From the NCBI RefSeq assembly GCF_000331735.1, contig NC_020126.1, positions 1,240,001 through 1,304,000 on the forward strand: DNA of 64,000 bases, read 5' to 3'. The notes under the pieces were generated by a model that saw only the letters and a program-made list of their open reading frames with translations, was not told the origin of the DNA and ran no database searches. Below are positions 32,739 through 32,988 of this stretch, piece after piece. Within the stretch, counting starts at the first letter, position 1. Each line of letters starts with the position of its first letter. The position numbers and the translations under genes are program-made. This DNA is from Myxococcus stipitatus DSM 14675. Lineage in GTDB: Bacteria; Myxococcota; Myxococcia; Myxococcales; Myxococcaceae.

Positions 32739-32803
32739 TCGCGTTTCTCGGTGGGAAAGGCCGGGACCGCGATGCTGCGCCCCGGCGTGTGGGGAAAAAG
32801 GAA

Positions 32804-32834
32804 CGGCCCGTCTCCAGGTGCTGGGGACGGGCCG
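32804..32834 (-). terminator. Intrinsic terminator (attenuator) in the cysK leader
   Basis: On the minus strand CGGCCCGTC (32834-32826) pairs perfectly with GACGGGCCG (32812-32804). An inner CCAG/CTGG pairing closes the loop around CAC after one mismatch. The hairpin is followed directly by TTCCTTTTT (32803-32795), a classic Rho-independent terminator, 57 nt before the cysK ATG. It can only act on transcripts entering cysK. Confidence 0.85.
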
Positions 32835-32862
32835 GACACGCCTGAGCGCGAAAGTGCGTGGC

Positions 32863-32949
32863 TCAGTACGCTCGTACGGACGGACCCGTCGCAGCACGAC
32901 AACACGTGCCGCGACAACAGGTCCTGAACGGAGCGACGGAGACGAACAT
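32863..32949 (-). CDS. Cysteine-rich leader peptide of the cysK-metNIQ operon
   Basis: A 28-codon reading frame with ATG at 32949 and TGA at 32865-32863. It encodes MFVSVAPFRTCC, then RG, T and a second CC pair (Cys11, 12, 16 and 17, all TGT codons). Four cysteine codons within seven residues, directly before a gene for cysteine synthase and a 9-bp intrinsic terminator, is the hallmark of a leader peptide whose translation rate reports Cys-tRNA supply. No Shine-Dalgarno is visible, and the candidate promoter predicts a transcript start within about 5 nt of the ATG. It may therefore be translated as a leaderless or near-leaderless mRNA. Too short for most gene finders. Peptide production is inferred. 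Confidence 0.75.
   Translation of the reverse strand: MFVSVAPFRTCCRGTCCRAATGPSVRAY
32881..32890 (-). promoter_or_regulatory. Candidate antiterminator arm in the cysK leader
   Basis: GACGGGTCCG, read on the minus strand at 32890-32881, can pair with the 5' arm of the terminator (CGGCCCGTC, 32834-32826): nine pairs with one bulged T. It starts 8 nt after the last leader Cys codon. That is the position expected for the competing segment in ribosome-controlled attenuation. Base pairing is directly visible; the switch is inference. Confidence 0.6.
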
Positions 32950-32959
32950 TGGCGTCAAG

Positions 32960-32988
32960 ACGTAACCAATCCGCCCAAGACTTGTCAA
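32960..32988 (-). promoter_or_regulatory. Candidate promoter for leader-cysK-metNIQ
   Basis: TTGACA (32988-32983) is a perfect -35. With a 17-nt spacer it is followed by TTACGT (32965-32960), a weak -10; an 18-nt spacer gives TACGTC. It lies 14-42 bp after the metC stop and predicts initiation near 32953, a few bases before the leader ATG. Confidence 0.6.

Follow-up and report, generated by a model that had tools for sequence, protein, structure and literature searches.

A conserved cysteine-codon leader as a probable ribosome-mediated attenuator upstream of metNIQ and cysK in Myxococcus stipitatus

In Myxococcus stipitatus DSM 14675, a short reading frame carrying four cysteine codons precedes the genes for a cysteine synthase and for an importer annotated for methionine. 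Does this leader work as a cysteine-sensing switch, and if so, which of the genes behind it would it control? Enterobacterial trp- and his-type attenuators combine a leader peptide carrying regulatory codons with mutually exclusive 1:2, 2:3 and 3:4 hairpins. We addressed the locus within a stretch of 64,000 nucleotides (hereafter the window; NC_020126.1, positions 1,240,001 to 1,304,000) and compared it with its relatives. The elements, their conservation and their pairing potential are read directly from the sequence and from this comparison. On these grounds the leader appears to be a ribosome-mediated (trp-type) transcription attenuator that would sense charged tRNA-Cys and control metNIQ and, in this locus, cysK, a reading to which we assign a probability of about 0.85.

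Layout of the leader and its gene run

All the elements from which a first-pass annotation had proposed a cysteine attenuator are present on the minus strand between 32988 and 32795. The -35 element of the TTGACA promoter lies at 32988-32983, 13 nt past the stop of an upstream cystathionine synthase/lyase-type gene, and is followed after a spacer of 18 by a predicted -10 element, TACGTC (32964-32959; TACSTS in relatives), placed 9 nt before the ATG. The leader ORF, MFVSVAPFRTCCRGTCCRAATGPSVRAY (32949-32863), has 28 codons plus TGA, and its four TGT codons, announced as a CCRGTCC pattern, are indeed codons 11-12 (32919-32914) and 16-17 (32904-32899), the second pair sitting in the loop of the 1:2 hairpin. 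The window has 251 ORFs of 20-40 codons that start with ATG; eight of them contain at least four Cys codons, and the leader ORF is the only one with two Cys-Cys pairs.

Arm 1 (32924-32905) pairs with arm 2, CGTGCTGCGACGGGTCCG (32898-32881), which provides both the 3' half of 1:2 and the 5' half of the antiterminator 2:3. The core of the latter, GACGGGTCCG (32890-32881), is the segment that had been noticed as able to pair with the 5' arm of a 9-bp terminator. Arm 3, CGGCCCGTC (32834-32826), is likewise shared, being the 3' half of the antiterminator and the 5' half of the terminator, while arm 4, GACGGGCCG (32812-32804), closes the terminator. The resulting hairpin (CGGCCCGUC CCCAGCACCUGGA GACGGGCCG, 32834-32804) has 9 outer and 4 inner pairs (-24.5 kcal/mol) and is immediately followed by the reported T-rich tract, TTCCTTTTT (32803-32795). 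The tract ends 56 nt, and the 3:4 hairpin 65 nt, before the cysK start. Folded as a whole (252 nt), the leader has a z of -3.2, with 2 of 200 shuffles equally good. A generic promoter and terminator scan of the window flagged neither the leader promoter nor its terminator, because the -10 is poor relative to TATAAT and the T-tract is interrupted.

The leader stands within a minus-strand run of sulfur-amino-acid genes: an aspartokinase/homoserine dehydrogenase, two cystathionine synthase/lyase-type genes, the leader itself, cysK, metN, metI and metQ. The gene cysK encodes cysteine synthase A (32738-31770; TIGR01139, 432 bits, cut-off 351) and overlaps by 4 nt with metN (31773-30772), an importer ATPase with a C-terminal NIL domain (PF00005 and PF09383) whose best NCBIfam match, TIGR02314, is below cut-off (376.9 vs 499.7). 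The permease gene metI (30782-30102; PF00528; NF008049 with 211.6 bits, just under the cut-off of 212) and metQ, for an NlpA-type substrate-binding lipoprotein (30043-29195; PF03180; several PDB relatives named MetQ), come next. We counted the nature of these genes, a cysteine synthase and a sulfur-amino-acid-type importer, in favour of a cysteine attenuator. At the head of the run, before the aspartokinase/homoserine dehydrogenase gene and about 5 kb upstream of the leader, the window carries a SAM-I-IV riboswitch (38174-38053, minus strand, 57.1 bits); a single sulfur-gene run would thus begin with a SAM sensor and carry the putative cysteine attenuator in its middle.

As a structured leader in front of sulfur genes, with that SAM riboswitch upstream, the element could itself be a T-box or a riboswitch that binds a metabolite. 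A T-box binds its tRNA directly and involves no translation. In the available portions of PMC6004538 and PMC2940859, Cys-specific T-box leaders of Firmicutes control cysK and transporters, a cysteine-specific control of the kind predicted here; unlike those leaders, the Myxococcus leader gives no T-box match. Against either identity, Rfam scans of the window, of 20 loci and, with E up to 1, of the leader itself gave no match on the leader, and arms 1 and 2 lie within a conserved reading frame. We regard this explanation as extremely unlikely.

Conservation of the peptide, its Cys codons and its start

The comparison centred on the window's genus (g1, 27 genomes) and a second genus (g6, 16 genomes). 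A blastn search with the leader against 96 family genomes gave matches in 30, of which 29 are real; the other, a match of 29 nt (L030), was discarded as chance. Counting the window's own, the leader is thus found in 25 of the 27 g1 and 4 of the 16 g6 genomes. A peptide profile run on 145 order and 195 phylum genomes recovered only the same 29 at full or nearly full length, with a single copy in each genome; that of G057 is the nearly complete one (27 of 28 positions). The profile also gave weaker partial matches (E from 1e-4 to 0.1) in 33 other genomes and in part of the 29; these were treated as noise, with L060 as the exception. This match (G074, near 1501-1551; E 9.8e-4) reads CRSGECCHAHTGP and belongs to a g1 genome without metN; TTGACA is absent within 150 nt upstream, and L060 is possibly a decayed leader remaining after loss of metNIQ.

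An exact-pattern scan of 84,980 species genomes matched 11 records (counted from the listing), nine of them titled Myxococcus or Pyxidicoccus (M. xanthus AM003 included), one Corallococcus and one Comamonas. The last (L083, BNCN01000002.1, titled Comamonas sp. KCTC 72670) fits the Myxococcus leader pattern, and the record is probably mislabelled.

All 29 leaders share the same architecture: an ORF of exactly 28 codons whose ATG lies 37-39 nt from the first base of TTGACA, with three to five Cys codons and never fewer than three. TTGACA is identical in the 29, but the search pattern required it; no leader was lost through that requirement. The alignment and codon table comprise 27 distinct sequences, L027 and L028 being omitted as identical to other rows over 160 nt. 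In this set, codons 11, 16 and 17 are Cys throughout, with synonymous change at codon 17 (TGT in 15, TGC in 12), and codon 12 is Cys in 18; among the other nine, a Cys is found at codon 5 in five and at codon 25 in one. The total is four Cys in 21 leaders, five in three and three in three. The clustering, within a short leader ORF, of codons for the amino acid of the pathway, as in trp-type systems, is therefore seen in 29 of 29, and this conservation supports the trp/his-like layout for cysteine that the first-pass annotation had suggested.

The position of the promoter is equally regular. A TA-containing -10 follows with a spacer of 17 in 27 leaders and of 18 in two, ending 8-9 nt before the ATG in all 29, and a Shine-Dalgarno-like 4-mer occurs within about 20 nt before the ATG in only five. 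Transcription starting at the usual distance from such a -10 would leave a predicted 5' UTR of about 0-3 nt. Since the ORF begins 8-9 nt past the -10, it is probably leaderless; judged by title, none of the papers brought up by a literature search on M. xanthus dealt with mapped leaderless starts.

Outside g1 and g6 we read eight further close metN relatives. Five of them (both g5 genomes and the three of four g7 genomes that have metN) carry, before metN, a differently worded Cys ORF and a strong hairpin with a T-rich tail. These ORFs have a GTG start 36 nt after the start of TTGACA, and the -10 ends about 7 nt before the GTG in all five. The g5 peptide is MLLACARCCPHVVATWCGHEGARVRT, and that of g7 is MHASLLRCCRCPITRRPGEEGACERAFLV plus two variants. 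In the remaining three (g2, g3), no Cys-Cys ORF was present within 900 nt.

This variation bears on whether the 28-residue peptide itself acts, be it as an arrest peptide, through its C-terminal GPSVR, or as a small protein that binds metals or thiols. Within the Myxococcus set the C-terminal GPSVR and the CxxGxCC motif are nearly invariant, and codons 25 and 26 vary synonymously, both counting in favour of this. However, codons 22-24 (GGT, CCG, TCC) barely vary in DNA, which at 22-23 is what the RNA arm overlapping them would demand, and the g5 and g7 leader peptides are dissimilar. We consider an acting peptide improbable.

RNA arms and modelled ribosome states

In the 27-sequence alignment, 84.7% of the 1:2 cells are paired, vs 30-48% when the arms are slid by 1-3 columns, and 86.7% of the 3:4 cells, vs 31-48%. 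Two-sided changes also exceed those of shuffled alignments (counts inflated by relatedness) for both stems: 22 cells vs 9.6 for 1:2, with none of 500 shuffles as high, and 13 vs 6.2 for 3:4, with one of 500. The pair-count and pair-type measures were not beyond the shuffles (195 and 344 of 500 as high for 1:2; 48 and 115 of 500 for 3:4). The antiterminator 2:3 has 90.0% of its cells paired (19-51% slid), but its covariation does not exceed that of the shuffles, of which 123 of 500 reach its count of paired cells and 425 of 500 its score. Shifted by +1, it shows seven two-sided changes, more than the two of the true register. We ascribe the lack of excess covariation to a pairing that is maintained but mostly invariant. 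Arm 3 does vary with pairing kept in the L012 group (GGCCGGUCCG/CGGUCUGGCC), L013 (CAUGGG/CCCGUG) and L029. A duplex calculation, run with no shuffle control, pairs ORF nt 55-75 with nt 88-140 in 29 of 29 leaders (-15.7 to -25.6 kcal/mol); the L012 group has a shifted register, and for some leaders (e.g. L003) the best duplex differs from the expected one.

The mutually exclusive 1:2, 2:3 and 3:4 pairings of trp-type leaders are hence maintained in the relatives. As to the comparison of orthologous leaders that had been proposed as a check, the Cys codons and stems 1:2 and 3:4 came through it in 29 genomes, while 2:3 was upheld as a pairing and showed no excess covariation.

The third trp-type feature, an intrinsic terminator before the first structural gene, is found in the window and, judged by eye, in 21 of the 29 leaders overall. 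Requiring at least five T in 12 nt gives 20 of 29, the one lost being L004, whose fold extended into the T-tract. The eight hairpins that have no T-tract (L021 and L023-L029) belong to an M. xanthus-like group plus one other, and arms 3 and 4 are rebuilt in L021, L023 and L029. Despite the missing T-tract, the Cys ORF and a 2:3 pairing are kept in these leaders, where termination may be Rho-dependent or otherwise different.

These eight hairpins would also suit a translational attenuation of the mycobacterial style, in which a leaderless Cys ORF governs how accessible the start site of the following gene is and no termination takes place. The probably leaderless layout and the Cys codons resemble the mycobacterial cases, as far as these are described in the accessible part of PMC13236596, citing Canestrari 2020. 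Three observations argue against it: the 3:4 hairpin holds no start site and ends well short of cysK; in the 18 leaders without cysK, the metN start lies 133-500 nt beyond the leader stop; and a T-tract does follow 21 of the 29 hairpins. We judge this mode of control decidedly improbable.

To model the switch, the ribosome was represented as a masked stretch of assumed size. Equilibrium folding of the full transcript proved uninformative as a switching test: the terminator core had a probability above 0.5 in 23-24 of the 27 leaders in every ribosome state. Since the terminator dominates the full transcript in all states, the switch must be kinetic, i.e. decided before arm 4 is made, and we replaced that test by transcripts truncated after arm 3. 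In these models, arm 3 is paired with arm 2 (P >0.5) in 27 of 27 leaders when the ribosome stalls at codon 11 or 12, in 22 of 27 with a stall at codon 16, in none with the ribosome at the stop codon, and in four with no ribosome (L014, L016, L017 and L020). Shuffling arm 2 in the codon-16 state lowers the mean pairing from 0.84 to 0.52 (158 of 270 above 0.5), so part of the effect is due to G+C content. Of the divergent leaders, those of g7 switch in the model (0.68-0.72 stalled vs 0.00-0.13 at stop), while the two g5 loci hardly do (0.57 stalled vs 0.50 at the stop codon).

The state with no ribosome favours termination in 23 of 27 leaders. This would also be expected if the hairpin served merely to terminate the upstream operon, with the ORF incidental, and the hairpin does lie 168-198 nt past the stop of the upstream gene. 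On the other hand, the four g6 loci have the leader and metN but not this upstream gene in the DNA retrieved, the length of the ORF and its Cys codons are invariant, and arms 1 and 2 are maintained inside the ORF. An incidental ORF is thus very unlikely.

Following the trp-type reading, we infer the start site, translation, stalling, termination and cysteine response as one course of events from the sequence. RNA polymerase would start at or within a few nucleotides of the ATG, and a ribosome would load on the essentially leaderless 28-codon ORF. With plentiful cysteine, the ribosome would pass the Cys codons to the stop and 1:2 would re-form behind it, leaving arm 3 free to form 3:4, so that transcription would stop before cysK-metNIQ. 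If Cys-tRNA runs short, the ribosome would instead stall at codons 11/12 or 16/17 and mask arm 1; the free arm 2 would capture arm 3 before arm 4 exists, no terminator would form and cysK-metNIQ would be transcribed. An untranslated transcript would terminate by default, and read-through from the upstream operon would for that reason stop here too.

Target genes and relation to known systems

The first-pass annotation had placed the attenuator before cysK-metNIQ, which is correct for the window; across the family, the leader goes with metNIQ, and cysK intervenes in one subclade only. The full-length leader and metN are either both present or both absent in 43 of 43 g1 and g6 genomes: a metN search of 145 genomes (E up to 1e-70) found the gene, within these two genera, in exactly the 29 leader genomes and in none of the 14 others. 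Only 11 of the 29 loci have cysK as the next recognised gene, with metN behind it. The other 18 lack cysK, with the metN distances given above; in four of them (L013, L015, L019 and L022) the leader-metN gap, 320-500 nt long, may contain genes other than cysK. The upstream gene missing from the DNA retrieved for the four g6 loci (L012, L014, L016 and L018) is the cystathionine-type one. Given this co-distribution and the limited occurrence of cysK, the leader seems to associate with metNIQ rather than with cysK; in one subclade, an insertion probably brought cysK in behind the leader.

Elsewhere in the genome of the window, the 420 nt upstream of L090-L093, its cysS and cysK-like genes, hold no ORF of 8-60 codons that has Cys-Cys or at least three Cys; three of the four other cysK-like matches were checked in this way, and for cysS a Cys-Cys ORF is absent from the preceding 420 nt.

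Nine more distant metN loci (L069-L077) yielded a suggestive Cys ORF in L069 only. In this single example (reverse complement), a possible leaderless Cys ORF, MKAPSREWLKALCCRCGC, lies about 518 nt before metN and 8 nt past TATAAC, and no T-tract hairpin was found downstream of it. Operator-like palindromes (TCCGTTATAACGGA or shorter relatives, by eye) occur near metN in L069-L075, where a protein regulator may stand in for the attenuator. In L062 and L063, a TTGACATCATG..CATGACGGCAA repeat about 150 nt before metN overlaps a -35, with no Cys-Cys ORF.

How does the Myxococcus leader compare with cysteine leaders known elsewhere? With respect to the enterobacterial trp and his attenuators, its signal would be cysteine, arm 2 lies in the ORF, upstream of the stop, and there is probably no 5' UTR. 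The general kind is not new, since the uORFC-8-2 motif, a Cys uORF plus terminator, has been predicted before cysS in Rhodobacterales (PMC8632094). As presented in the available part of that article, uORFC-8-2 shares with our leader a tandem-Cys uORF whose Cys codons fall within a stem, a terminator that includes a U-run and a predicted ribosome-mediated attenuation. It differs in its phylum and in its target, cysS, whereas the Myxococcus leader stands before metNIQ or, as in the window, cysK-metN of a myxobacterium; and it has one tandem, usually at codons 14-15, instead of codons 11-12 plus 16-17. Neither a three-way arm set nor a near-leaderless start is noted for uORFC-8-2 in that part of the article.

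For the actinobacteria, the accessible text of PMC1262725 predicts Cys leader peptides in Mycobacterium, P. acnes and B. longum, with no conserved terminator hairpins. PMC13236596, in its available part and citing Canestrari 2020, describes leaderless, cysteine-responsive polycysteine sORFs of mycobacteria under the term translation attenuation. Their leaderless start, their runs of Cys codons before cysteine genes and their response to cysteine would be shared by our leader, in which leaderless start and response are predicted. Unlike the mycobacterial leaders of PMC1262725, the Myxococcus one has a terminator and an antiterminator, with a T-tract behind the hairpin in the window.

A further reading combines two proposals: that a leaderless leader peptide drives a terminator-type attenuator, and that MetNIQ importers are deployed for cysteine, through import of cyst(e)ine or of methionine for conversion. 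With loading on a bare 5' end, ribosome and polymerase would be synchronised without a Shine-Dalgarno step. The second proposal derives from the element following metNIQ in the family, with cysK between in one subclade; against it, metNIQ-type importers elsewhere are under methionine control in the available portions of, for example, PMC6004538 and PMC4239095. We put the combination forward tentatively, with the odds slightly against it.

A search of open-licence papers found no described myxobacterial cysteine attenuator. If the trp-type reading holds, a classical ribosome-mediated, cysteine-responsive attenuator is now placed in the myxobacteria. Its layout, a probably leaderless leader peptide plus an intrinsic terminator, would be intermediate between the mycobacterial and the enterobacterial types, and the prediction that follows for these organisms is that an importer annotated for methionine may serve the supply of cysteine.
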